NCBI GenBank assembly: GCA_037952775.1
Contig: JBANAY010000004.1
Coordinates: 11,904,001-11,968,000 of the forward strand
Length of the DNA stretch: 64,000 nt
Origin: Clonostachys chloroleuca
Lineage: Eukaryota; Ascomycota; Sordariomycetes; Hypocreales; Bionectriaceae
Reading direction: 5' to 3'
Shown here one piece after another: positions 6,365 through 23,090 of the stretch. The notes beneath the pieces are model-generated. The model was not told where the DNA came from, did not search any database, and worked only from the letters and a program-made list of their open reading frames with translations. A program made the position numbers and the translations under genes. Numbering within the stretch: position 1 is the stretch's first letter; each line of letters begins with the position of its first letter.

Positions 6365-8660
6365 CCTGGCGGTCCTTCTCTTTTGTGCGATGCGGTATGT
6401 GGTATGTGATAGATGTTTCGTGTTACACAGAAGTGTCGCGGAATGGAAATGAAACACTCCCCGTTAGCTACAAGTTGGAAACATCTCGGAAAATTAATGA
6501 ATAAATGAACTGCACAGCACAGCGACAGCGGACAGGGAGGTATAATAGAAATATAAACCCACAATCCTGCATCTTCATTCCGTAATTAGATTGCTTTGCT
6601 GGTAAAACTGGGGTCCAGACTCGCGGGTCATACGACCTAGCCGCCAGGAACACCTCAAACATCAAGGTGAATCAAGCTCCTCAGACTAGATGTGGTTCTT
6701 TAGAACTAGCTCTTTCAGAGTCTCGTAAAGACTCCACTCTTGGGTGAGATTCTGCAATACCAAGAGGACTAGAGGCTGCCGAAAATGTCATTGCGATCCA
6801 CGTCGCTCGCTCTACTTTATGGAAAAGGGTAAACTGATCGCCGGTTGATATATCCAGGCTTTGGAGGGGTAACATACTATCCGTCCATGAAAGCCCACTC
6901 CCAAGAGGCAAACTGAGGCCAACATCTGTGAGGAAAAAGATCCTATTCAGCGAGTTTCGGCATGATGGAGGAGTTCATGCCAAAGCTCAGACCCTCGCGG
7001 GACGCAATGGCCCCTGCCAAGAAGCCGAAGTGTAAGACGCTAACTGGCACTACAGACGGTGAACTACTGGTCTGTCTTAGCTATCAGTTCGGCTATGTAC
7101 GAGTCGGGAGCGGTCTAGATGGCTTGTCCCCGAGATTTATGTGTCATCGTGGTGGTGCGTGGTACAAGATCGAGCCGAAGCCCTAGCCCGCCCCTGTCTA
7201 TTCACGATCTAGCCCCGCGATGTGCGCATAAGTTCGGTGGGCCAAGTGGAATTTAGTACGGGTTACCTCCCGCACCCGATCGAACACCACTAAACCTAAG
7301 TCATTATTGGACATTTGGATCCGAATTATTGATTCCTAAGAAATGGCCGACGCCACAACAGAATTAAAGTATGGCATGTGCGCAGCTACGACGGCCAAGA
7401 TCGATTCTGTCCTTCCCTCGGGCTGACAGATTCCCGATGAACGAGGGAATTTTTTTCCCATATCTTCATTCAAGTTATGAGATTGGGGAGGCATGACTCG
7501 GGCTATTACTAGCCCGACTGCTAGGGCATCTCCATGTGGTAAGGTTGTCAATACTCTCCTTACCTGTAATGGAGTACCGATTTGAAGGATTTGTAGCTCA
7601 TCAGCTTAATGCTTTTCCGTGTTTTAGGCAGGTATCTTAGGGCATGCAGAGACGGTCAGTGGTCGTGTATTTTATTGAGACATGTTAGGTGAGAAGGTTA
7701 TTCCGATGATTGGGGCGACAACTATTTCGACCCATGGATCAATCAATATTTCTAAATTCACACCTTTAATCCACCTACACTTATTTGGAATGAAACTCAT
7801 AATAATTACGTGCTTTCAATTTTGAGCCCACGTGTTCAATGCTCTCGTCTTCTGTTTTTTCCTGAACGATGTATAGGGAGATTGATCGAGAGCAGGGGTA
7901 TAGGGTAGCCACTTCTTCAAATACTGATGTTTCCTCCCGGCGCTCGCCGTGCCATTTGTCTAAGATTTGTCTTACTTATGGACAGAATGAGAATCACGCA
8001 CCCAGAGCTGTGCGTTGTGGACGGACAGCTCACCGAATGCCGAAGGCCCGAGAGACGCCCGAGAACCAAGGCAGAAAGCTGCTGGTACGAGGTGGGCTCA
8101 CGGCTTCTCATCACCCTTGCCCATCTCCAAAATTTGTTTATATAGAGCCAGGGTGCCCAGAGGGCGATTTTAGACGTTTGATGATGCTTGATGCTTGATG
8201 CTTGAATCGGAGGTCAGCCGAGGCACATGATTTGTTATGTTGGCGGTGATCATGTCTAGGCTCCATATGACCCCTCAATGTAAGCTTCACTTTCAATGTT
8301 CCAGCTCCAGCAATTGGTGTCCTGTACGGCGATGCTTTGAATATTTTGACATGCTGTGTACAGTGCTATGATCAATTAAGGCCTTCTGGATGCTTGGATG
8401 ATCGCTGGTGCCCTGTACTAAAGCCGGTGAGGTTGAGTTCAGGAGCCTTATCTCTTATCATCACGACCCCCCATTCTGCCTTCCCAGACCGCCCAAGATC
8501 CCACACACATCCACACCAACCAGCGAACCATGTGACCGCAAGTCATCATCCAGCCAGGGTTTCAGATTGTCTTGTTCGGCCAGCGGCCTTACGTTCATGT
8601 GTGCTCAATTCATCTTATAGACGGACGGGAACTCACGCACTCGGGGATCTCTTCTCGTCA
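6365..8660. other. Intergenic interval, no gene supported
   Basis: About 2.3 kb upstream of both the membrane protein (leftward) and the Myb gene (rightward). Only short ORFs without motifs occur. A small direct repeat (GATGCTT three times) lies near 8183-8205. A partial TGACTCGG at 7494-7501 lacks the GTGA half of the cluster motif. The region is presumably the Myb promoter plus spacer. Confidence 0.5.
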
Positions 8661-10090
8661 ATGCCGACCGTATCCTCCCAGCTGGAGCCGTCGACCGCAA
8701 CGCACACGGGCCCCACCAGCTCGGCTCGACGAACACGGCGAAGTTGGACATCCTGGGAGGATCAGACCCTACGGTCTCGCGTTGCCCATTATGGCGATGC
8801 GAGGGGGGCCAACGGACGTTGGAAAGAGATTGCCTGTGGGATTCCTGGTCGTACGGCCAAGGTGGGATTGATCTCTTGATGCGCGATTATGCCGTAGCCC
8901 CAAGCCTGCACATATGTCATCGTTTCCATTCCTCCGTCTAACCAATTGATGTCTGATAGGATTGTCGCAAGCGGTGGTTTCACTCTCTAGACCCCTCTCT
9001 ACGAAAAGGGCGATGGACGCAAGACGAAGATCGAATTCTACTCGAAGCATACGCACGGCTAGGCCCATCATGGCACGAGATCGCGTCCCTCATCCCCGGG
9101 CGAAAGGACGACCAATGCTCCAAGCGATACAACGATATTCTAGATCCCTTGGCACAGAGGAGGCTGACGAGCTGGACGCCCGAAGAGGATAACATTCTGA
9201 GAGAAGGCGTGCGCAGTCTGGGTCATCGATGGGCGGCCATCTCTGCTCGACTTCCAGGGCGCCCGCCGCTCACCTGTCGCAACCGGTGGCGCAACCTGTC
9301 CAAGCAGCAGAGTAGCCCAGGCGCTTCGGACAACCAACTTGAACAAGCAAACGAGCCACTCATCTCGGAGAACGAACCCGTTGAGTCCCCCGAATCGCCG
9401 ACCGTTCCCACCGATCTCGACGTTGCTGGTGCAATGGACTTCCAAGACTCTGTAGGTTTGGGGTTTGAACATTTTGATCCCCTGGTGGTAAATGGGCTGG
9501 ATGTGCCCACGGACCCGAACCTCTTCAGTAGTCATATGGGTCATGTCTCGTCGCATGGGCATCCTCCAGATCTGAGACCTGGTCCGGGTAACCTGAATTC
9601 GTCGTTAATTCCTGTAAGTTCGGTAGGGAATGCCGCCGGCATCGGCATCCATGCACCGCCCAGTGAAGTTCACTTGCACCACCCCGGATCTCAGTTGCAC
9701 ACCCATACGCATTCCATAAATACATCATCAAGCCACCCAGAGCAAGCCATGGGAACTGCGTCACACGTGGGAGCGGTCTCGACAAGGATGTCACCTCACT
9801 TCCATGACACAGCGCAGCCCCTCGTCGACGATGCAGCGATCCAGTCGCAGTTGAGGGCTACCGAACAGGCTGCAGAGGAGGAGCTTGGACCTGACCAGCA
9901 AGCGGCCCCGGGAGATCCTCGAGACATCCTGGAATCTTCCCAGTCTCGCGCAGCAGAGCTTGAAGTAGAGCGACGGACAAATCTACCATCTTCGTCGACT
10001 CCCTCCGTCCATCTTCACCATCACCATCACCACCACCATCACTACCATCACCATCATCATCACCACCACTATCACCACTACCCTTTCTAA
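8661..10090 (+). CDS. Three-repeat Myb transcription factor, Bas1-like candidate regulator
   Basis: The start ATG at 8661 (MPTVSSQLEP) opens exon 1 (8661-8861); a 98-bp intron (8862-8959) joins AAG to GAT in phase 0; exon 2 runs to TAA at 10088-10090, giving 443 aa. Three tandem Myb repeats occupy about residues 27-77 (RSWTSWEDQ...DCRKRWFHSL), 83-128 (KGRWTQDEDRI...QCSKRYNDIL) and 135-180 (RLTSWTPEEDNIL...CRNRWRNL). The intron cuts the third helix of repeat 1. The middle is Pro/Ser/His-rich and low complexity; the last 30 residues are almost all His with a few Tyr, from a CAC/CAT run. Yeast Bas1 is a Myb protein that binds TGACTC and controls purine and one-carbon genes including GCV and SHM2. 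This gene abuts those enzymes, whose promoters carry a TGACTC-containing element, so it is the obvious candidate regulator (inference). It has no full motif copy upstream. Confidence 0.85.
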
Positions 10091-10458: not shown

Positions 10459-11795
10459 CTATGCATCGCCCTTGTAGTACTTGGCGGGTGTGAACGGCAT
10501 CTTGGTCACCGTAGCACTCCTCTTCTTCCCCCGCACGACGACGTCCACCTCGGTGCCGGCCTTGTGCAGCCCATCCTTGACGTAGCCCATGGCGATGTTC
10601 TTGCCCACCGTCGGGCTGGGCAGGCCGCTCGTGACGGTGCCGACCTTCTCGCCGTCCTTGTGGATCTCGGCGCCCTCGCGCGCGGGCGCCCCGTTGATGA
10701 CGAAGCCCACGCGGCGGCGGTCGACGCCCCTGCCGCCCTTGCTCTTGGGAGTCAGCTGGGCGTTGATGACCTCGGCGCCGTGGAACCCGCCGGAGGCGCG
10801 GCGCTCCTTGGGGATGATCCAGCTCAGCCCCGCCTCGACGGGGGTGGTGGTGTCGTCGAGGTCGTGGCCGTACAGGCACATTCCCGCCTCGAGGCGGAGG
10901 GAGTCGCGCGCGGCGAGGCCGGCGAGCTGGAGCCGCTCGGGACCCGCGCTCTGGAGGAGGTGCTGCGTGGCGAGGGGGTGCTCTCGAAGGCCGGGTAGGC
11001 TTTCCCGTTGAAGGAGAGCTCAAAGCCGTCCTCGCCTGTGTAGCCGCCGCGGCTGATGAGGACGGGGTGGGACTCCTCGCCGCCGGAGAGCTTGAGGTTG
11101 GCCCAGACGGCGTTGCCAAAGTACAGCTTGGAGAGGTCGACGGCGGAGGAGGGGGCGATGACCTCCTGGAGGACCTCGGCGCTGCGGGGGCCCTGGAGGG
11201 CGAGGAGCCCGGAGTTGTCGAGGGTGGTCCACTCCACGGAGCCGCCAAACTTGCCGAGCTCCTCGTCAAAGTACTTGAGGTCCTTCTCGAGGCAGGCGCC
11301 GTTGGTGACGACGTAGTACTCCTGCTCGCCGAGGCGGGTGACGACGGAGTCGTCGACGATGCCGCCGGTCTCGCGCCAGAGGAAGGTGGTCAGCTTGCTC
11401 TGCATGGAGCCCTGACCGCGCCAGTCCGAGGGGGTGACGGTCTCGAGGAAGGCGGCGGCGTCAGGCCCCTTGAAGATGTGCTGGACCATGTGGCTGACGT
11501 CGAAGAGGGAGGCATTGGTGCGGGTGAAGTGGTGGGATTCCTTGTGGGAAAGGGAGCCGTACTGGATGGGGAGGTGGTATCCGGCGAACGGGACGAGCTT
11601 GCCCTGGTTCGCGAGGTGAAAGTCGTACAAAGGAGTCTTCTTGAGCTCTTCTGAGGCGGCGGCGGCGGCGGAGTAGTGTCGCCGTGAGGAGGTGATGGGG
11701 GCGGGATGTGAGATGGAGCGGGAAGAGGAAGCCAGGCATCGGCCGGATGCTAATCGCGAGCGGAAAAGCGGCCTGGACACAGCAGAGAATGCCAT
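10459..11795 (-). CDS. GCV1: Glycine cleavage system T-protein (aminomethyltransferase), mitochondrial, apparent 1-nt frameshift
   Basis: The T-protein takes the aminomethyl group from lipoylated H-protein and, with tetrahydrofolate, releases ammonia and 5,10-methylene-THF. The ATG at 11795 starts a basic, Ser/Arg-rich mitochondrial presequence (MAFSAVSRPLFRSR...); the mature part follows with TPLYDFHLANQGKLVPFAGY, SLFDVSHMVQH, GYTGEDGFELSF, LEAGMCLYGHDLDD and TPVEAGLSWIIPK, all in family order, to the TAG at 10459. Length with one base added is 445 aa, as usual for eukaryotic T-proteins. The frame shifts once at the G5 run 10974-10978 (C5 on the coding strand): sense continues one base out of frame. 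No intron fits there. One more base in the run restores the gene, so a homopolymer undercall is likely. Two copies of the cluster motif lie 356-378 bp upstream. GC-rich with strong codon bias, like the other cluster enzymes. Confidence 0.92.
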
Positions 11796-12657
11796 GATGT
11801 GTGTTGGTGGTGAAGGTGAGGGAGAGGATGAGTTGGAGGCGTGTAAGCCGGGTCGTGATGACAGGCAAATCGCTGCTGGATGCCGCCCTGTTCTGAAGAT
11901 AAAAGTAAGAGAAATAATACAGATCTCGGAGGAGAGGTATCTACAAGGGATGAGGCTGGGGGAAGATGAAATGCCGATGTTTAGACCAGCTGATGTTCAT
12001 GAACGATGTTGACTGATGGTCGGATGGTAGCCGGTGCCTGGATACGGGGTAATATGCACTGCGACCAGCCGTGCCGGAATGTACACGGGAGCTTATCAGG
12101 CAATAATTTTACTGCTAGTCGCCCTCTTTGTTGGTGGTCGAAATTCGCTGTCACCGAGTCACATCACCGAGTCATCAACAATGTTCTTTGATGCAACTGT
12201 GGCCACCGCTGCGATTACGCCCGTCGGACGGACCAGGGGAGGCGTCTAGCCGCCCGTTAGGTAGAGATACGAAATACATTGCATTGTCCTAATTTTCATT
12301 TGATTGATCGCCTGTTGCGACAGCTTCTCCGAACCCCGGCCGCCGTTTCTCGGAGGCTCCATAGAATACCAACCACAAGTGATTTACAAGCTTCTTCCGT
12401 GGCTTCGACATGATGACATGGACATCAGGGTGCAGGAAAGTGCGGGGTGTAGATTGACCATCTGTTGGTACGTAGAGACTTAGAAGGGAGATCGTGTATG
12501 ACTTCACTTTATGTCGAGGTGGCATGCTGCCTTACATTGAGTTTGCAAAGTCACGGAAAGTTGGAACCAGCAGAGTCAATCCATTGAATACCAATTGCAT
12601 TCAGTAGCTACGCTTGCCTTAGTTGTAAATATTGTTTAAAGTCAATAAAGCCATCAC
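11796..12657. other. Upstream region of the T-protein gene
   Basis: This 862-bp gap separates the T-protein start from the stop of the serine dehydratase gene. It holds the motif pair at 12147-12173 and otherwise only short, motif-free ORFs. Both flanking genes are on the minus strand, so it is the T-protein promoter plus the dehydratase 3' region. Confidence 0.6.
12147..12173 (-). promoter_or_regulatory. Cluster motif pair upstream of the T-protein gene
   Basis: TCACCGAGTC occurs at 12151-12160 and again at 12164-12173, 13 bp apart; on the minus strand each reads GACTCGGTGA, preceded by T to give the TGACTC core. The first copy is preceded by GCTG, as at 10166 and 21712. They lie about 360 bp upstream of the T-protein ATG, in the direction of its transcription. 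Confidence 0.75.
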
Positions 12658-13740
12658 TTAGTATCCGTACTGTTCTTTCCATCGCATGAGCATCTCGACC
12701 GAGATGTCGTTGCCACCGCAGACCAGCAGCACAACCTTGGAGTCCCTGTCCAGCCTCTTACCAGTAAACTTCTCCAAGAGATTGTCTTCGCAGAGCCTGA
12801 CCGCAATGCCGGCTGTGAGCTCAACCAAGAGGCGCTCATACTTAGCCAGCATCCAGCAGCCCTTGGCCGCCTCGGCATCGCTCAAGACGCCGCTGACCAC
12901 CTGATCACGCTGGGCGTAGTCAAAGGTCTTCTGCGACACTGTTGCGACACCGAGGCTGCGCGCCTGCGACGTGATCTTCTCCAGAGTCACCAGCTGCCGC
13001 GCCTCGAGGGCCTGGTTGAGCGAGTCGGCCCCGGCCGTTTCCATGGCCAGCACCATGGTGCCGTCGCTCCAACCGAGCTGGTCAAGACTCTGCACGACGC
13101 CATTCATGAGTCCGCCGCCGCCGACACTGCAGACCACGATGTCGGGCTGCTCGTCGCTCAGCTGTGCGGCAATCTCCTGCATCACGGTGGCATTGCCGGC
13201 CCAGATGTCAGGGTGATCAAAGGGCGGCACATATACACCGTCTGGATCGGCGAGCAGGACGGTGGACTTGAGGTACCGGTCCGCGTCCATGACACTGTGC
13301 CCGTGCTGGATGATGCTGCTGGCACCCTCCTCTTCCAGCCTGGTAATGAGAGCTGGGCTGGCCGTAGTAGGTATCACGACGGAGGCCTCATACCCAAGGG
13401 ACTGGGCGGCAACGACACATGCTATGCCGGCGTTGCCTCCGGACGAGGCATAGAAGTGCGGCTTCTTTCCATCAGTGACATCGTGCTCTCGGATGCGACT
13501 GAGGAGATAGTTGCCGATGCCTCGAGACTTGAAAGAGCCGGAGGGTTGGAGGTTGTCTAGCTTAAGAAAGATTCTACTTCTACGATTTAGAACATGTATC
13601 TTCACATCGTGAACCCCCAAGATAGTTTGATATCATTGGAGGCCAGATCCTGGGGACACATACCATCCTGCGCTCTTTGAGAGCTGGGGAGACTCAATCA
13701 AGGGAGTTGCAACCCATGGCTGGCGGCGGGAGATTGTCAT
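12658..13740 (-). CDS. L-serine dehydratase / L-serine (threonine) ammonia-lyase, CHA1-like
   Basis: A PLP enzyme of fold type II that converts L-serine to pyruvate and ammonia (often threonine to 2-oxobutyrate too). Exon 1 (13664-13740) encodes MTISRRQPWVATPLIESPQL; an 87-bp intron (13577-13663) splits the Cys codon of AGC-RIFLKLD; exon 2 runs to TAA at 12658, giving 331 aa. The PLP lysine is K42 in LQPSGSFKSRG, the substrate loop is ASSGGNAG (about 69-76) and the phosphate-binding Gly-rich loop is SVGGGGLMNG (about 176-185). The protein lacks the C-terminal ACT domain of biosynthetic threonine deaminases, so a catabolic role is favoured. It is divergent from the P-protein gene and shares the 14179-14209 motif pair. 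In the cluster it would drain serine made from glycine. No clear mitochondrial presequence, so probably cytosolic. Confidence 0.9.
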
Positions 13741-14178
13741 ATTGGGGTGAAGTAAAGGTGGTTTTGTAAAATTTAGAAGGTAGAACAGTTGGAAGGAAAC
13801 TTCAGATGTTGGTCACAAGCTTGAACAGCTCTAACTTCCAGTCTACTTGCAAGCCGGAAGACCGCCCGAGCTTTACTCCTGGACGGTATTTATTATATTC
13901 CCATGTTGCAATTACACAATAAACAGGGCGACTACGCTAACTCAATACATTCTCTCATCGATCACGAGACGACTCCGAGTGAGATATCGTTGCGTAAAAA
14001 TCACCGAAAGGGGCATGGTGATGCTGCGCGGGACGCTGTGATACAGTCCATAGAGGTACAACACAATCTCGTCGCCCTCCATCTCAGACGAGAGGTGTGT
14101 GTCGTCCCCTGGTCTCCCCGGATCCCCAGCTCCCGACAATGGCCTCGAGATTGATACAAAGCGGTGCGTAGCGGCTCA

Positions 14179-14209
14179 GCACCGAGTCAGAGGAGGATTT
14201 CACCGAGTC
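14179..14209 (-). promoter_or_regulatory. Cluster motif pair in the divergent dehydratase/P-protein promoter
   Basis: GCACCGAGTC (14179-14188, one mismatch) and TCACCGAGTC (14200-14209) are 21 bp apart start to start, about two helical turns. On the minus strand they read TGACTCGGTG(C/A). They sit near the middle of the 888-bp intergenic region, 439 bp from the dehydratase ATG and 420 bp from the P-protein ATG, so one pair could serve both genes. The remainder of 13741-14628 shows no gene. Confidence 0.75.
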
Positions 14210-14628
14210 ATCGCCCCACCACGGAGCCACGCCGGCATGAGGCACGGCCGGGGATTGCCGGCAAGGATCGGCCAATAGCCTTTCCTAAGGTGATTTTCTA
14301 GCCTGTGCCGATGTCGAAGCGACCGGATGGAAAAAATTATGAGGGTCCCTTGCTGTAGTGTTCCAGAACAGGGGGCGAGATAACAAGCAGCCTACAGTGC
14401 ACTTGCATGGCGCTTATCATCTACCCATCATCCATCCCTCCTGATTCCAAAGTTTCTTTTCCAGAACACATCATTGTCTGACTTGTAGTTTTCCATCGCG
14501 TCATCTATCTTTCCAAGGGTGGGAAAGATAGTAATCCTTGTCTTGTGAACTTTTTCACTCGACTTCTTCACCTGTCATCACCCCGAGAGAACCACCCCAG
14601 AGGACATCTCGTTCCAAGTCAAGTCACA

Positions 14629-17600
14629 ATGCTGTCCAGCACCGCTCGACGACAGCTGTTGCAGCGACTTCCCGGGAAGGCTCCTCGTATTGCCTCCCGG
14701 GATGTTTTGTGCTATGCTGCCCACCAGAGCCCCCGTCTTCGCAGCGGGTTCGCCACACAGGCATACCGCCTGGGCCAGGTGAAGAGCTTCACCGAGACAG
14801 AGGCCTTTGCCAAGCTTCAACAACATGAGTCCTTTCCCCGAAGGCATCTCGGCGACGAGGCAGATGAGCACCAGGAGATGCTCAAGGCCCTCGTCCCCCC
14901 CGCCGCCTCCATGGAGGAGTTCATCAGCCAGACCATCCCAGAGCAGGTCCGGAGGAAATCTACTGGCCTGGATCTGGTGGAGCAGTGGAAGGCCGAGGAC
15001 CCCCTTACTCCCGTGCCTGCAAACGGGCGCTCGGAGCAGTTCGTGAGGGAGCAGATGAAGAAGCTTGGCGACCTGAACACCGTCGCCGAGTCCTACATTG
15101 GAGCTGGCTACTACGGTACCCAGGTCCCCGCCGTCATCCAGCGCAACATCCTCGAGAACCCAGCGTGGTACACCAGCTACACTCCATACCAGGCCGAGAT
15201 CAGTCAGGGCCGTCTCGAGTCCCTGCTCAACTTCCAGACCATGGTCGCCGACCTGACTGGCCTTGAGATCGCCAACGCCTCCGTCCTTGATGAGGCTACT
15301 GCCGCTGCCGAGGCCATGACCATGGCTTTTGCCAACGCCCCCAAGAGCGGAGGCAAGACCTTCGTTGTGTCCGAGAACTGCCACCCCCAGACTCTTGAGG
15401 TTCTCAAGTCCCGAGCGGAGGGATTCGGCATTGAGCTCGTCGTCGGTGACGTCCTCGCCAACGATTACGAACTCGTGAAGAAGGCCGGCAAGAGCCTCGT
15501 TGGTGTTCTTCTCCAGTACCCCGACACCCGTGGTGGTGTTTTCGACTACCAAGGCCTCTCTGACCTTGTCCACGAGGGCAAGGGTCTCGTTTGCGTCGCC
15601 ACGGATCTCCTGGCCCTCACTCAGCTCAAGGCGCCCGGCGAGTTCGGCGCCGACATTGCCCTCGGCAGCTCCCAGCGATTTGGTGTTCCTCTGGGATATG
15701 GAGGCCCCCACGCTGGATTCTTCGCCTGCTCCGAGAAGTACAAGCGCAAGATTCCTGGACGTATCGTCGGTGTTTCCAAGGATCGACTGGGCAACCCGGC
15801 CCTGCGCCTCGCTCTGCAGACTCGCGAGCAGCACATTCGCCGTGAGAAGGCCACCAGCAACATCTGCACCGCCCAGGCTCTGTTGGCCAACATGAGCGCC
15901 TTCTATGCCATCTACCACGGCCCCGAGGGTCTCAAGGCCATTGCCCAGGATGTTTGGGCTAAGACCCGTCTGGCACAGGATCTTATCACACGCCAGGGTG
16001 ACTTCAAGCTCTCCACCGCCGGTCTCCGCGACGATGGCTCCGTTCTCTTCGACACCTTGACCCTCAAGGGATCTTCGGATGCTGTTATTAACGCACACGA
16101 GAAGGCCTCTCTCCTCAACATCAACCTTCGCAAGATCAGTGAGACCGAGCTAGGCTTTTCCCTTCACGAGGGTGTCTCTCTGGAGAGCCTGGGCAAGCTT
16201 CTCAAGTGCTTCAATGTGGCTGAGCAGGATTTCAATGCCGCCGTCGAGAAGGGTCTGGACAGTGCTCTATACGCCAACTCGTCCATCCCCGCCAACCTCC
16301 AGCGCAAGACCGCCTTCCTCCAGAACCCCGTCTTCAACCAGCACCACTCCGAGACTAAGCTTCTGCGATACATCTACCACCTTGGAAACAAGGATCTCTC
16401 CCTCGTCCACTCCATGATCCCTCTCGGCTCCTGCACCATGAAGCTCAACGCCACCACCGAAATGCTCCCCGTCTCTCACCCCGGATTCTCCAACATCCAC
16501 CCTTTCGCCCCCGTTGAGCAGGCTCCTGGCTACCAGGCCATGCTCGCCTCCCTCCAGAAGAACCTGTCGACCATCACCGGCTTCGACGAGGTCAGCCTGC
16601 AGCCCAACTCCGGCGCCCAGGGTGAGTTCGCCGGCCTCCGCACCATCAAGGCCTACCACGAGAGCCGCGGCGAGGCGAACCGAAACATCTGCCTCATCCC
16701 CGTCTCCGCCCACGGCACCAACCCCGCAAGCGCCGCCATGGTCGGCATGAAGGTCGTCGCCATCAAGTGCGACGCCAAGACGGGCAACCTCGACATCGCC
16801 GACCTCAAGGCCAAGTGCGAGAAGTACGCCAAGGACATCGCCGCTGTCATGGTCACCTACCCCAGCACCTTTGGTGTCTTCGAGCCCGAGGTCAAGGAGG
16901 TCTGCCGCATCGTCCACGAGTACGGCGGCCAGGTCTACATGGACGGTGCCAACATGAACGCCCAGATCGGCCTCTGCAGCCCCGGCGACATCGGCGCCGA
17001 CGTCTGCCACCTCAACCTCCACAAGACCTTCTGCATCCCCCACGGCGGCGGCGGCCCGGGAGTAGGTCCCATCGGCGTCCGCAGCCACCTCGCCCCCTTC
17101 CTCCCCGGCCACCCGGAGGCAGATCCCCAGAACGGCGGAAAGGCGCGCGAGTCGACCGCCATCGCGCCCATCAGCGCGGCGCCCTGGGGTAGCGCGTCCA
17201 TCCTGCCCATCAGCCACGCCTACATCCTCATGATGGGCGGCCAGGGGCTCACCCGCCAGACGGGCGTCGCCCTCCTCAACGCCAACTACATCATGTCCCG
17301 CCTCCTCCCCCACTACAGCGTCGTCTACACCAACGACAACGGCCGCTGCGCGCACGAGTTCATCCTCGACATCCGCCCCTTCAAGGAGACCGCCGGCGTC
17401 GAGGCCGCCGACGTGGCCAAGCGCCTCCAGGACTACGGCTTCCACGCGCCCACCATGAGCTTCCCCGTCTCGGGCACCCTCATGATCGAGCCCACCGAGT
17501 CCGAGTCCCGCGAGGAGCTCGACCGCTTCTGCGACGCCCTCATCCAGATCCGCAGCGAGATTTCAGATATCGAGTCCGGCAAGGTGCCCAAGGTGGGCAA

Positions 17601-17802
17601 CCTGCTCAAGAACGCGCCGCACCCGCAGCAGGACCTGCTCGCGGCCGAGTGGGACAGGCCGTACACGCGCGAGGAGGCGGCGTACCCGCTGCCGTACCTG
17701 CGGGCCAAGAAGATGTGGCCGTCGGTGGCGCGGGTCGACGATGCGTACGGTGACACGAACCTCTACTGCACGTGCCCGTCTGTGGAGGAGCTTGCCGAGT
17801 AA
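14629..17802 (+). CDS. GCV2: Glycine cleavage system P-protein (glycine dehydrogenase, decarboxylating), mitochondrial
   Basis: The P-protein decarboxylates glycine and passes the aminomethyl group to the lipoyl arm of H-protein in the mitochondrial matrix. I start it at ATG 14629 (CACAATG context, presequence MLSSTARRQLLQRL); an in-frame ATG at 14545 is possible but gives a poorer presequence. One uninterrupted exon encodes 1057 aa, normal for eukaryotic P-proteins. The two homologous halves are visible: N-terminal half with YIGAGYYGTQVPAVIQRNIL and NPAWYTSYTPYQAEISQGRL; C-terminal half with HSMIPLGSCTMKLNATTEM, the PLP lysine (about K799) in HLNLHKTFCIPHGGGGPG, and ISAAPWGSASILPISHAYI. Strong GC3 bias suggests high expression and creates long meaningless antisense ORFs. 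The 3' flank is T-rich. Divergent from serine dehydratase, convergent with the H-protein gene. Confidence 0.97.
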   Translation: MLSSTARRQLLQRLPGKAPRIASRDVLCYAAHQSPRLRSGFATQAYRLGQVKSFTETEAFAKLQQHESFPRRHLGDEADEHQEMLKALVPPAASMEEFISQTIPEQVRRKSTGLDLVEQWKAEDPLTPVPANGRSEQFVREQMKKLGDLNTVAESYIGAGYYGTQVPAVIQRNILENPAWYTSYTPYQAEISQGRLESLLNFQTMVADLTGLEIANASVLDEATAAAEAMTMAFANAPKSGGKTFVVSENCHPQTLEVLKSRAEGFGIELVVGDVLANDYELVKKAGKSLVGVLLQYPDTRGGVFDYQGLSDLVHEGKGLVCVATDLLALTQLKAPGEFGADIALGSSQRFGVPLGYGGPHAGFFACSEKYKRKIPGRIVGVSKDRLGNPALRLALQTREQHIRREKATSNICTAQALLANMSAFYAIYHGPEGLKAIAQDVWAKTRLAQDLITRQGDFKLSTAGLRDDGSVLFDTLTLKGSSDAVINAHEKASLLNINLRKISETELGFSLHEGVSLESLGKLLKCFNVAEQDFNAAVEKGLDSALYANSSIPANLQRKTAFLQNPVFNQHHSETKLLRYIYHLGNKDLSLVHSMIPLGSCTMKLNATTEMLPVSHPGFSNIHPFAPVEQAPGYQAMLASLQKNLSTITGFDEVSLQPNSGAQGEFAGLRTIKAYHESRGEANRNICLIPVSAHGTNPASAAMVGMKVVAIKCDAKTGNLDIADLKAKCEKYAKDIAAVMVTYPSTFGVFEPEVKEVCRIVHEYGGQVYMDGANMNAQIGLCSPGDIGADVCHLNLHKTFCIPHGGGGPGVGPIGVRSHLAPFLPGHPEADPQNGGKARESTAIAPISAAPWGSASILPISHAYILMMGGQGLTRQTGVALLNANYIMSRLLPHYSVVYTNDNGRCAHEFILDIRPFKETAGVEAADVAKRLQDYGFHAPTMSFPVSGTLMIEPTESESREELDRFCDALIQIRSEISDIESGKVPKVGNLLKNAPHPQQDLLAAEWDRPYTREEAAYPLPYLRAKKMWPSVARVDDAYGDTNLYCTCPSVEELAE

Positions 17803-18134
17803 TAATTTAGATAGAAAGAAAGAGCGATTTGATTTTTTTTGGTTTCTTTTTACTTTGGTTACATGATGAGTGTTTTTTTTTTAAATTATTTGGGATTAAT
17901 TTTTAGAAGTGAAGGCCTTACTGGACTGCAAAATGGTGAAAAATGCAAGGTAGTCTTTATTCAACGAGGTCTACGATAGCGATGCATTGGGATTCAACAT
18001 ATCACAAGGCGAATAGAGGAAGGAGTTTATACTTTTTGATTTAAAAAAAAAATGATGATTTTTTCCAATAGACTTGACGGCTTTATATGAACAATTAAAA
18101 ATCTTTCAATTTTGAACAAACACAATATCAATTC
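17803..18134. other. Convergent 3' region of P- and H-protein genes
   Basis: A 332-bp AT-rich spacer with several T and A runs (for example near 17835-17845 and 17872-17885) lies between two convergent stops. It presumably contains both polyadenylation regions. No ORF or RNA gene seen. Confidence 0.5.
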
Positions 18135-18781
18135 CTAGTGATCCTCCTCGGCGAACTTGGTGTACGCCTCCAGGTCCATCAGCTCATTCACAGGAGCCAG
18201 GTCGGCGGCCTCGACCTTGATGAGCCATTGCTCGCCCTCGGGGTCCTTGCCGAGGTCGGCGGGCGTCTCGGCCACGGGGTCGTTGACGGCGACGACGCTG
18301 CCGTCGATGGGGGAGACGATGTCAGAGGCCGACTTGACCGACTCGACGGAGCCGAAGCTGTCGCCGCTGCCCACGTCGTCGCCCACCTCTGGGAGCTCGA
18401 CGTAGACGATGTCGCCGAGGGCCTCAGCGGCGTGCTTGGTGATGCCGATTGTGCCTTTGATGCTTAAGTTAGCTCAATTGGTCGGGGTCAGGTCAGTGAT
18501 GAGTGGTACTCACAGGTCTTGCCGTCGCTGGCGACGTCGATCCATTCGTGAGTCTCGGTAAAGCGCTTCTCAAGGCCTGACGTGGTGATGGTTCAGTATT
18601 TATTGTTCATGATGAAGTTGAAGTTTCTCTGGATCTTACGTTGTACTGATTGCGAGAAGCTCATGCGCTGTGAGATGGGCAGGGCCCTGCTTACGGGAGC
18701 AACCTTGACAGCTGCCGGCCTCCAGCATCGCGCCGTTCTCGAGGCAGAGGCAACAGCCTGGCGTGTGAAGAGAGTAGCCAT
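18135..18781 (-). CDS. GCV3: Glycine cleavage system H-protein (lipoyl carrier), mitochondrial
   Basis: H-protein carries the aminomethyl group between P- and T-proteins on a lipoylated lysine. Exon 1 (18640-18781) encodes a classic presequence, MATLFTRQAVASASRTAR...; intron 18577-18639; exon 2 (18514-18576) gives LEKRFTETHEWIDVASDG; intron 18455-18513 ends in AAG; exon 3 (18135-18454) continues TIGITKHAAEALGDIVYVEL to the TAG. The total is 174 aa, typical size. The lipoyl lysine is K109 in GSVESVKSASDIVSPIDG, and the fold's PE(V)GD and NDP landmarks are present. Five motif copies lie 268-416 bp upstream. It is the smallest of the three cleavage-system subunits in the cluster; the fourth (L-protein, lipoamide dehydrogenase) is shared with other complexes and is not in this window. 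Confidence 0.95.
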
Positions 18782-19048
18782 TGTGAATATGTGAGGGAAG
18801 GGATATGCGGAATATGGGACGTGTGTAAGAGAGCGAGTGATAGCAAATAGCGGGTTTATTACTGGCAAACTGCTGAGGAAAGGAAAATTGGGAGCAAGGC
18901 AGGAAACAGCTGGACAGGCGAGCTTAACTGCCCCCGACAATCGCAGCGGTACCTGGACTGCTCTCGAGCCAGCTAAGGAAATCTTCCTTATCTCGAGCTC
19001 GGATCGAAAACCGGCGGGCCGGTGGGCTGGAGTGGGCTTGTTCTCTTT

Positions 19049-19109
19049 GACTCGGTGATGGGCCGACCCACTTGGATAGAGGATGCGACTCTCCCCACAG
19101 ACTCGGTGA
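19049..19109 (+). promoter_or_regulatory. Two cluster motifs upstream of the H-protein gene
   Basis: GACTCGGTGA occurs at 19049-19058 (preceded by TT, giving TGACTC) and at 19100-19109 (preceded by A). They lie 268-328 bp upstream of the H-protein ATG, in the 813-bp gap (18782-19594) that separates it from the SHMT stop. That gap contains no gene. Confidence 0.75.
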
Positions 19110-19159
19110 TTTCTGGTCCCACCGATGCATGAGGCTGGGCCGGAGCGGATTCTGGGCTG

Positions 19160-19197
19160 GACTCAGTGAAGGGACTCAGTGAAGCTGGACTCAGTGA
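19160..19197 (+). promoter_or_regulatory. Triple array of the A-variant motif upstream of the H-protein gene
   Basis: GACTCAGTGA occurs three times, at 19160-19169, 19173-19182 and 19188-19197, with starts 13 and 15 bp apart. All three carry A where most other copies carry G. Each is preceded by G rather than T, so the strict TGACTC core is not complete here. The array is 379-416 bp from the H-protein ATG. Confidence 0.75.
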
Positions 19198-19594
19198 CAA
19201 TGGCAGGCAAAAGGTCTTTTTTCCCCGGTCCGTTATCTCGACTGCGCGGCACGCCGTAACCTAGGCTAAGCTTGAGTCAAATCTGTCGATTTTTTGTCAT
19301 GGGAGGCCGGTAATCGGACGCATTCGAGATCACTTGCGTTCAGTAGCTACAGGGAAGGTCAATGCAATTTGGGAGGCAAAGTCACGGCGGGAAAATCGCA
19401 TGTGTTTTGCGGCAACACAATGAGTAGACATTGTCAAGGTACTCAATTCATCGTCACTTGGCAATGGTAAGATCAAGGTAAAAGTGTAGAATAAACGCTG
19501 AAATTAAGTTTTGGTTTTTTCCATCTTCAAGAAAAAAAAACATCGATGAAAATATGGCTATAAACAAAATCATAAACTGTGTGATATCATTCCC

Positions 19595-21294
19595 CTACAG
19601 GACCCAGGGTTGATCAAACTGCCCAACCCATTCCTCAACCTCCTTCCGCAGAGTCTGGATCTCCTCAACCTGCTTGCCGTCGCCAAGGTGGCTCAGGAAG
19701 GCCTTGACCGTGGCGGGGTTCTTGACACCCTTGGCCTGCGCCTCGGACTTGGCTTCCTTGTCGACGGCGAGGGTTATGCCGATGCCGCGGTGGATGATGT
19801 CGGCGACGCGCTCAAAGTCGGTGGTGGTGAAGCCGCGGGTGGTCATGGCCGGGGTGCCCAGGCGCAGGCCGCCGGGCTTGAGGGCCGACTTGTCGCCGGG
19901 CACGGTGTTCTTGTTGCAGGCGATGCCGCACAGCTCGAGCACGCGCTCGACGCGGGCGCCGTCGACGCCCTTGGGCTTGAGGTCGACGAGGACGAGGTGG
20001 TTGTCGGTGCCGCCCGAGACGAGCGTGTAGCCGAGGGCGTCGGACAGCTGGGCGGCGAAGGCCTTGGAGTTGACGAGCACCTGCTTCTGGTACTCGGCGA
20101 ACTCGGGCGTCTTGGCCTGGCGGAGGGCGGTGGCCAGCGCGGTGATGGTGTGGTTGTGGGGTCCGCCCTGGTGGCCGGGGAAGACGGAGGCGTTGATGGG
20201 GCCCTCGAGGTCGTACTTGACCTCGTCGCCGTTCTTCTTAACGGAGCGGACGCCCTTGCGGAAGAAGATCATGGCGCCGCGGGGGCCGCGCAGGGTCTTG
20301 TGGGTGGTGGTGGTGACAATGTCGGCATACTCGAAGGGAGAGGGGAGGACGCCGGCAGCAACGAGACCGGAGATGTGGGCCATGTCGGCGAGGAGGTAGG
20401 CGCCGACCTCGTCTGCGATGGCGCGCATACGGGCGTAGTCTATGAGGCGCGAGTAGGCGGAGGTACCGGCGATGATGATCTTGGGGCGGTAGAGAAGAGC
20501 ATTTTGGCGCAGCTTCTCGTAGTCAATGAGGCCGGTCTTCTCGTCTAGGACGTACGGCAAGGTCTCAAAGTACTTGGAGACCATGGAGATCTTCTTGGTA
20601 GGGAGCTGGTAGCCGTGAGACAGGTGACCGCCCTGTGGAAGATCAAGACCCATGATGCGTTCATGGGTGTTGAGGAGAGCCGAGTAGGCGTAGAGGTTGG
20701 CGGGTGATCCAGACAGTGCTATCTTGCGTGTCAATAATTGTGCCTCTCAGCATTGATACAGAGAGCGAACTGACCTTGGACATTAACGCCCCATCGATCA
20801 GACTCGAGGCGGAAAGCTTCCAGAGCACGTTTCTGGCACAGTCTCTCGGCCTCGTCGATGTGCTCGTTACCTCCGTAGTATCTGGCTCCGGGGTATCCCT
20901 CAGAGTACTTGTTCTGCATGACACTGCCCAGAGCCTCGAGCACAGACTTGGATGTGAAGTTCTCAGAGGGAATGAGGTTGATGAAGTGCTGCTGCCTCTT
21001 CTCCTCCTGTACTGGGAGTCAGCGTTGTACTTGATTGCCCATGATGGCTTGCACTTACACGCTTGAGAATCGCATGAAGCTCAGGGTCATTCTCCAAGAG
21101 AGAGCCGCCCAGAAGCTGTTGAAAATATATTAGCGAATAATTACTTCCAAATATTTCATCTGCATAGGATTGCCTACAGTCTTGTCTGCTGATGAGAGCG
21201 ACGCGACTGAACGCGACCACTGATATCTATGGGCAGGCGAAAAGGCCTGTTGCAGGCGTCTGCCTGTGAGACCAACTGTGCGTGATCGAGACAT
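19595..21294 (-). CDS. Serine hydroxymethyltransferase, mitochondrial
   Basis: SHMT interconverts glycine plus methylene-THF with serine plus THF. Four exons fit exactly: 21178-21294 (presequence [18 protein letters not shown]...), 21059-21115 ([19 protein letters not shown]), 20775-21006 ([17 protein letters not shown]...[14 protein letters not shown]) and 19595-20718, giving 509 aa ending QFDQPWVL. Introns are 62, 52 and 56 bp. Family landmarks: [30 protein letters not shown], the PLP lysine about K276 in [13 protein letters not shown], and [14 protein letters not shown]. The basic presequence marks it as the mitochondrial isozyme (yeast SHM1 counterpart), which places it in the same compartment as the glycine cleavage system. 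Three motif copies lie upstream at 21638-21725. In the cluster it would build serine from glycine-derived one-carbon units. Confidence 0.96.
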
Positions 21295-21637
21295 GGCTGC
21301 GTTGATGTGGGATATGGCAGACTAGACACGATTGCAGTCGAAGGCTGATGTCAGACGGGAGAATGAACAAAGGAAGAAAAGGAAAGAAGTGTAAAGTTTG
21401 ACTGGGCTGGTATGAAGGTGTGACTGTGGTCGGGAGGAGCTGTCTAGTTGAGCTGCCCGTGTGTGCGCGGCTACTCTGGCGGCCCCGAGCAACGGAGCTT
21501 ATCCGGAAGCGACCCGATAACATCCATCTCTTCAATGGATGGCCGAGATCGAAGCGAGGGGCAAATTCTGCAGATCTGGCCGTATCGTTTCGTGGAGGCG
21601 TGCGCCCGCCCAGCCATGCAGTTTGTTTTCGTTGCTT

Positions 21638-21725
21638 GACTCGGTGACATTTGGCTGTGACTCGGTGAATAGTGCAGACGGAACGTGGAACAACACTAAA
21701 AAAACAGCGCCGCTGTCACTGAGTC
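21638..21725 (+). promoter_or_regulatory. Three cluster motifs upstream of SHMT
   Basis: GACTCGGTGA occurs at 21638-21647 and 21659-21668, again 21 bp apart, each preceded by T (TGACTC core). An inverted A-variant, TCACTGAGTC, follows at 21716-21725 inside the longer block shared with 10166-10191. They lie 344-431 bp upstream of the SHMT ATG. The rest of the 980-bp gap to 22274 contains no gene. Confidence 0.75.
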
Positions 21726-22274: not shown

Positions 22275-23090
22275 ATGAACCCGGCCGAAAAAACCTCAGA
22301 CGATGGCCTAGCCGTTATTCACGTCGCCTTGTTTCGAATGGCAACGAAATCTGTGGCGCATGCGTATAGAACCCTGGGCTACAAGACGCATCATGGCGAT
22401 GAGGACATCCTCGGAAACCCGTGGGAATCCATCGAGCGAGCAGCAGAAGCAACCTGGCCGTCGATCCCAGGCGCCAGACCCCAACCAAGGTTCACTCGCA
22501 AAGACTGGGATGAGCTCTGGGGATCCAAATATGATATCGTCACCGACATGGCCTGTCCATTTGTCGATCAGCTCATTGAGGCATATCCCAATGCCAAAGT
22601 CGTCATTGTTCAGCGGGACTTTGACAGCTGGTGGATAAGCTACAAAGTCGTTGTTTTGGACAAGCTCTTCACAGTCGGACAGACCGTCATGCTTTTTCTC
22701 GTGAGCCATGTCTTGAGATCACGATCCGCCCATGCTTTGACGAAAGTCAGCTACGGGCTTTTTGACGCCAGAAACATGTCTGAGATTGAGGCGAATGCAC
22801 GACACGGTTATGACCAATACTACAAAAAGATTCGGGACATGGTTCCGCCCGAGCGAAGGCTGGAGTACTCTATCGGCGACGGATGGGAGCCGCTGTGCGC
22901 GTTTCTGGGGAAAGACATCCCGGATGTACCATTCCCGCGTCTGAATGATAGGGCTGATAGAAAGAAGAGGCACAAGGAAGGAGAACACATGGTATACCTT
23001 CGAGCAGCTAAGAAGCTTGCTCCCTGGGTGGTTGGCCTCGCAGCGATTGTACTTCCGCTTTCGTACATGTATACGACGGCCAAGAAATAG
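22275..23090 (+). CDS. Sulfotransferase-like protein with C-terminal membrane anchor
   Basis: A single exon of 271 aa starts in a CACCATG context. The layout matches the fungal sulfotransferase family (Sulfotransfer_4 type): an N-terminal nucleotide-binding strand followed by TKSVAHAYRTLGYKTHHGDE, then AYPNAKVVIVQRDFDSWW, equivalent to the 3'-phosphate-binding region, then the C-terminal GWEPLCAFLGKDIPDVPFPR motif that is diagnostic of the family. The PAPS loop, normally RTGT, reads FRMATKSV here, so catalytic competence is uncertain. A hydrophobic stretch (WVVGLAAIVLPLSYMYT) closes the protein and probably anchors it in a membrane. It lies downstream of the glycine block without its own motif copy, so I do not count it in the regulon. 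Confidence 0.7.
   Translation: MNPAEKTSDDGLAVIHVALFRMATKSVAHAYRTLGYKTHHGDEDILGNPWESIERAAEATWPSIPGARPQPRFTRKDWDELWGSKYDIVTDMACPFVDQLIEAYPNAKVVIVQRDFDSWWISYKVVVLDKLFTVGQTVMLFLVSHVLRSRSAHALTKVSYGLFDARNMSEIEANARHGYDQYYKKIRDMVPPERRLEYSIGDGWEPLCAFLGKDIPDVPFPRLNDRADRKKRHKEGEHMVYLRAAKKLAPWVVGLAAIVLPLSYMYTTAKK

Follow-up and report, generated by a model that had tools for sequence, protein, structure and literature searches.

A glycine and serine gene cluster with a shared upstream element

The 64,000-nucleotide stretch of the Clonostachys chloroleuca genome analysed here (the window; C4:11904001-11968000) carries five enzyme genes of glycine and serine metabolism beside a gene for a Bas1-family Myb protein, together with twelve copies of a 10-bp element, GACTC[A/G]GTGA (GACTCRGTGA), upstream of the enzyme genes (Table 1). 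Jointly, the five enzymes convert two glycine to serine, and serine to pyruvate and ammonia. The spliced reading of the dehydratase shares 96% identity with a protein that carries the name L-serine ammonia-lyase in C. chloroleuca, and GCV2 was the sole match in a search of the genome (59.4 Mb, four contigs) for the GDC-P family.

Table 1. Genes of the cluster and copies of the 10-bp element, in window coordinates
Feature	Position	Strand	Description
Myb gene	8661..10090	+	Bas1-family Myb, 443 aa, three Myb repeats, one intron 8862-8959; candidate regulator
GCV1	10459..11795	-	glycine cleavage T-protein (GCV_T, PF01571); stop codon 10459-10461
Element, GCV1	12151..12173	-	two GACTCGGTGA copies (12151, 12164), 13 bp apart, 5′ of GCV1
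Serine dehydratase	about 12658..13740	-	L-serine dehydratase (ammonia-lyase), PALP family; start and intron(s) read from sequence
Element, dehydratase/GCV2	14179..14209	-	two copies, 21 bp spacing (14179 GACTCGGTGC, one mismatch; 14200 GACTCGGTGA), divergent promoter
GCV2	14629..17802	+	glycine decarboxylase P-protein, 1057 aa
GCV3	18135..18781	-	glycine cleavage H-protein (GCV_H, PF01597), with introns
Element, GCV3	19049..19197	+	five copies 5′ of GCV3: GACTCGGTGA at 19049, 19100; tight GGACTCAGTGA triplet at 19160, 19173, 19188
SHM	19595..21294	-	serine hydroxymethyltransferase (PF00464), with introns
Element, SHM pair	21638..21668	+	two GACTCGGTGA copies, 21 bp spacing, 5′ of SHM
Element, SHM third copy	21716..21725	-	GACTCAGTGA, opposite orientation to the SHM pair
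Sulfotransferase-like gene	22275..23090	+	next gene after SHM

All twelve copies that the earlier note had listed in four upstream regions serving the five enzyme genes (GCV1; the divergent serine dehydratase/GCV2 region; GCV3; SHM) were recovered at those places, eleven of them exact and the one at 14179 departing at its last base. As the note had also claimed, the window holds no full copy elsewhere, and its chance expectation of 0.24 exact copies is correct given even base use. At up to one mismatch the window contains 20 matches, compared with a mean of 7.95 (standard deviation 2.87, largest 15) in 100 dinucleotide shuffles. The copies occur in both orientations and lie 356-369 bp from the start codon of GCV1, 439-460 bp from that of the dehydratase, 420-441 bp for GCV2, 268-407 bp for GCV3 and 344-422 bp for SHM (268-460 bp overall, a range that rests on start codons and introns read from the sequence, without transcripts). 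Alignment of the twelve sites gives GACTC, then A or G, then GTG in every copy, with the final A in 11 and no flanking column common to more than eight; the base 5′ of GACTC is T in seven copies, G in three and A in two. The element had been described as containing or abutting TGACTC and extending it to the right. The GTGA extension stood (11 of 12), but TGACTC is present in only seven of the 12 copies, and the shared core is therefore GACTCRGTGA. Fixed helical phasing was considered and rejected, as the start-to-start spacings (13, 21, 51, 60, 13, 15, 21 and 57 bp) show none.

Across the four upstream regions (3,547 bp) there are 11 exact copies, one with one mismatch and one with two, and one-mismatch words occur at 0.155 per kb across 180,127 bp of 47 other loci. 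Nearly all copies being exact, with few near-misses, is the pattern expected from a demanding binding protein, and on the evidence of its letters GACTC[A/G]GTGA is almost certainly a real binding site. Its strict core, mostly unrelated flanks, use in either orientation and similar start-codon distances make an operator the natural reading. Alternatively, the copies could be debris of a short repeat or duplicated promoter with no regulatory function. The triplet upstream of GCV3 (19160-19197) is nearly identical, in 13- and 15-bp units, and looks like local tandem duplication, from which the three A copies (those with A after GACTC) in this array may derive; in addition, the spacing is 21 bp in both of the pairs 14179/14200 and 21638/21659, which BLAST joins over 31 bp (81%, E = 0.003). 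However, no more than 5 of the 11 bases match between the spacers of these pairs, flanks outside the GCV3 array are largely unrelated, and genome-wide the word does not behave as a repeat; this explanation is already largely refuted and is very improbable. Apart from the triplet and the two 21-bp pairs, the copies look independent in sequence.

Confinement of close-set copies to the cluster

Genome-wide, GACTCRGTGA has 182 exact copies (92 + 90) versus 206 for the reversed control pattern; the complete list of these places was assembled by preceding base (T, 53; G or C, 91; A, 38), and 11 of them belong to the glycine cluster. Single copies elsewhere are thus at the level of the control, and it is the close-set copies that are confined to the cluster. 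The ten smallest gaps between neighbours (13 bp to ~4.85 kb) all fall within it, the next (5,653 bp) separating two single copies, and exact copies less than 5 kb apart occur there only, which bears out the earlier note in calling the element cluster-specific. A search pattern for tandem pairs (two GACTCNGTGA separated by 0-30 bp, any base at R) has four matches in the genome, all in the cluster, and its control has none. At the outside density 0.028 copies would be expected per 9.6 kb (9,579 bp), against 11 observed, for a Poisson tail of 1.7e-25 that takes the word as given, though it was chosen after inspection. A word survey gives the same result and so answers the worry over post hoc choice: ACTCGGTG is the top 8-mer of the four upstream regions (eight copies, present in 4/4). 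For comparison, four stretches of equal length were drawn at random 2,000 times from the remainder of the window, with coding DNA included and two-letter words disregarded; the top word common to all four reached six copies, in four of these draws. Insofar as single copies elsewhere occur at the control level, chance coincidence might be entertained; it is refuted by the confinement of tandem pairs and small gaps to the cluster, and its probability is negligible. Because close-set copies are found nowhere else in the genome, a dedicated switch seems to run the whole pathway.

The form extended by the 5′ T, TGACTCRGTGA, has 53 genome copies (45 for its control), six of them in the cluster. None of the 47 outside copies has a second exact copy within 300 bp, seven have a one-mismatch word within that distance, and 19 lie in stop-free stretches of at least 200 codons. 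A T precedes GACTC in 6 of the 11 exact cluster copies versus 47 of the 171 others, a difference that is not significant (p = 0.08).

Related genes elsewhere in the genome were also considered. Serine hydroxymethyltransferase (SHMT) is encoded at three loci, namely the cluster, C4:4635622-4636859 and C3:3500585-3501886 (the last a weaker family match), and one of the non-cluster loci presumably encodes the cytosolic enzyme. No exact copy of the element lies within 25 kb of the other SHMT, FTHFS or AICARFT loci or of the lipoamide-dehydrogenase candidates. The nearest are 29.5 and 173 kb from the other SHMT loci, 46 kb from FTHFS, 346 kb from AICARFT, 67 kb from a long GCV_T paralogue, 57 kb from a second Bas1-like Myb gene and at least 51 kb from the three best lipoamide-dehydrogenase matches, all of which score below the family cut-off. 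A few one-mismatch words occur near these genes, including GACTCTGTGA ~1 kb before one SHMT and TGACTCGGTCA ~100 bp before the first matched exon of the second Myb; they are at about background level, and TGACTCGGTCA could be real. Plain TGACTC occurs 17 times (two overlapping) in 31 kb of related-gene loci, or 0.55 per kb versus a background of 0.47 per kb, and its presence there makes a weaker Bas1-type control of these genes possible.

Two further observations concern the cluster genes themselves. Inside GCV1 the reading frame shifts between about 10965 and 11007; as no other close T-protein copy was found in the genome, this is likely a sequencing error, a real lesion being possible. Besides GCV1, GCV_T matches an 837-codon open frame at C3:6422491 (the long paralogue) and, weakly, C3:31852589; we read the first as a putative dimethylglycine-dehydrogenase-like protein and the second as a putative IBA57-like one. 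Directly downstream of the serine dehydratase and SHM (12545-12611 and 19321-19387), there are two further common words, TTGC[A/G]TTCAGTAGCTAC and GCAAAGTCACGG, in opposite order at the two genes.

The probable reader of the element

The spliced cluster Myb is identical over 443 residues to C. chloroleuca V2G26_020249. It contains three PF00249 stretches (Pfam), corresponding to three tandem Myb repeats, and residues 25-182 of its predicted model can be aligned with c-Myb (1h88_C). Of the 120 listed relatives (210 found), 15 are named BAS1 or Bas1p, names being labels and not tests, and most others have no informative name. Searches of genome and viral contig collections with the cluster Myb, and with a 21-row Myb alignment, yielded no DNA of relatives. 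The C-terminus of the cluster Myb is histidine-rich (10009-10087). Many of the 21 Bas1-like relatives in the alignment, which ranges from Fusarium to Aspergillus, end in a similar way, as does the second Myb encoded in this genome, and this suggests a conserved metal-binding or sensing tail.

We give a probability of roughly two in three to the reading that a strict 10-bp site co-switches the five glycine/serine genes and is read likeliest by the cluster Bas1-type Myb; as judged from sequence, the neighbouring Myb is probably the main reader. The three tandem repeats would bind as a monomer over the asymmetric ~10-bp site, pairs or arrays of which would serve some 270-460 bp 5′ of the start codons, and the paired sites would give cooperative, glycine-responsive activation. 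Binding would thereby act on transcription, with glycine or one-carbon status as the putative signal, so as to switch the glycine cleavage T, P and H proteins, serine hydroxymethyltransferase and L-serine dehydratase together and run the pathway from two glycine to serine to pyruvate.

Several observations weigh against this reading. The stretch upstream of the cluster Myb (7300-8660) is free of the element even when one mismatch is allowed, and autoregulation of that gene through the element is thereby rejected. The T of TGACTC is absent from 5 of the 12 copies. No exact copy occurs within 300 kb of the AICARFT locus, although yeast Bas1 also governs purine genes. Lastly, the second Bas1-like three-repeat Myb (C1:744003-744561), which branches separately, together with a C. 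rosea protein, shares 71% identity with the cluster Myb across the larger matched portion of the DNA-binding domain and has the same R2 and R3 recognition-helix words, so that it could bind the same site. This unlinked paralogue, or both Mybs, might therefore be the binder, with the linkage of the cluster Myb incidental. The word TGACTCGGTCA close to its first matched exon would fit such a role, as would the situation in Aspergillus nidulans, which reportedly has two Bas1-like Mybs, of which only basR is required for the orsellinic acid cluster (PMC6234034). However, only the cluster Myb is adjacent to the enzyme genes, and there are precedents in fungi for catabolic clusters governed by a pathway regulator (PMC4950302, PMC5746545); we regard this alternative as quite unlikely.

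A true cluster-wide operator could also be bound by a Gcn4/CpcA- or BIP1-type bZIP factor that sees TGACTC(G). Magnaporthe BIP1 reportedly binds TGACTC promoter fragments, with a proposed extension CATGACTCG (PMC10833574). TGACTC serves both bZIP factors and Bas1 as a core, and TGACTCG is spelled by 7 of the 12 copies; the missing T in the other five argues against such a factor, as does the right side, where GTG is kept in all 12 and GTGA in 11. GTGA is not a bZIP half site. The general-control core itself (Gcn4/CpcA TGASTCA, that is, TGACTCA or TGAGTCA) is found in none of the copies, and the one TGAGTCA, at 19273, lies outside them. Within the cluster, all T-preceded copies have G after GACTC and all four A copies lack that T (p = 0.010); TGACTCA accordingly accounts for 0 of 7 T-preceded copies in the cluster versus 24 of the 47 TGACTCRGTGA copies outside (p = 0.013), a test that is weak because three of the four A copies are possibly tandem duplicates. 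Moreover, a general-control factor would leave the confinement to a single cluster unexplained. Overall, a bZIP binder is unlikely, and the lack of TGACTCA gives a slight hint of a separation between the cluster and cross-pathway control.

On the preferred reading, the arrangement is a one-carbon regulon of the Bas1 type that has been drawn together into a single gene cluster, has its own regulator and uses an operator extended to 10 bp. More tentatively, a Bas1 duplicate may have settled beside the glycine cleavage genes, and a private 10-bp operator may have co-evolved with it, read by the three repeats and avoiding TGACTCA. Such a course would have turned a dispersed yeast-style regulon into a self-contained, 'operon-like' eukaryotic cluster, the sole paired target in 59 Mb.

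Comparison with known regulatory systems

No report of the 10-bp element or of a glycine cluster was found among the open-access matches listed, a set that leaves most subscription journals outside. Among the matches listed for papers containing the exact 10-mers, no title concerned glycine genes or a fungal control element, and the word 'glycine' is absent from the main text of PMC3703260, PMC4256263 and PMC7530617. If true, the proposed reading would connect a regulon well known from yeast with a core mitochondrial pathway whose genes are physically clustered, and would provide a Myb with an unusually long, exclusive target. It would also represent a compact case of regulatory rewiring, in which the enzymes and the regulator family are the same, AICARFT is without the site and serine dehydratase has been gained. 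In addition, it would offer a direct and cheap test for the function of Bas1-like Mybs in filamentous fungi, which was called completely unknown in 2018 (PMC6234034).

Clustered catabolic genes under one regulator are known for N-acetylglucosamine with RON1 (PMC4950302) and for nicotinate with HxnR (PMC5746545); these serve other pathways, and neither regulator is a Myb, RON1 being Ndt80-like and HxnR a zinc finger. BIP1 of Magnaporthe oryzae resembles the present case in its TGACTCG cores in a filamentous ascomycete, for which electrophoretic mobility shift assays and promoter mutation are reported, but it is a bZIP of appressorium genes with the extension noted above in place of GTGA (PMC10833574), and the C. 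chloroleuca copies have the TGACTC core in 7 of 12 cases, not in all. In A. nidulans, BasR (AN7174) and AN8377 are two filamentous-fungal Bas1-like Mybs, just as two close ones are present here; BasR differs in being known for control of secondary-metabolite clusters, and the passages available mention no glycine cluster and report the BIRD region as missing in BasR (PMC6234034). A further comparison is with Bas1/Grf10 of Candida albicans, where Bas1 is required for the one-carbon genes SHM2 and ADE3 to be expressed at their basal level; adenylate genes are included there, however, and the available portion mentions neither a cluster nor a 10-bp element (PMC5541157).

The nearest likeness is to the Bas1 regulon of Saccharomyces cerevisiae, in which GCV1, GCV2 and GCV3 are co-regulated with SHMT and which features a Bas1-type Myb and a TGACTC-related site. 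The Bas1 target is given as TGACTC (PMC3866871), Bas1p is said to be involved in modulating the folate pathway (PMC6531845), and GCV1, GCV2, GCV3, SHM2 and ADE17 are described as a one-carbon regulon in a paper citing a study of regulation by Bas1p (PMC3789790). In C. chloroleuca, the element likewise lies upstream of GCV1, GCV2, GCV3 and an SHMT gene, and no such site was found at AICARFT (ADE17-type) or the other one-carbon genes considered. The yeast and Candida precedents mean that a Bas1-type Myb has been associated with glycine cleavage genes before; the apparent novelty lies in a cluster with its own Myb, the added serine dehydratase, the shared 10-bp site and its confinement to one locus. 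The S. cerevisiae regulon includes ADE17 and its listed site is 6 bp long, whereas in C. chloroleuca the genes and the Myb form one physical cluster, a strict 10-mer is the shared site, and the T of TGACTC is dispensable.

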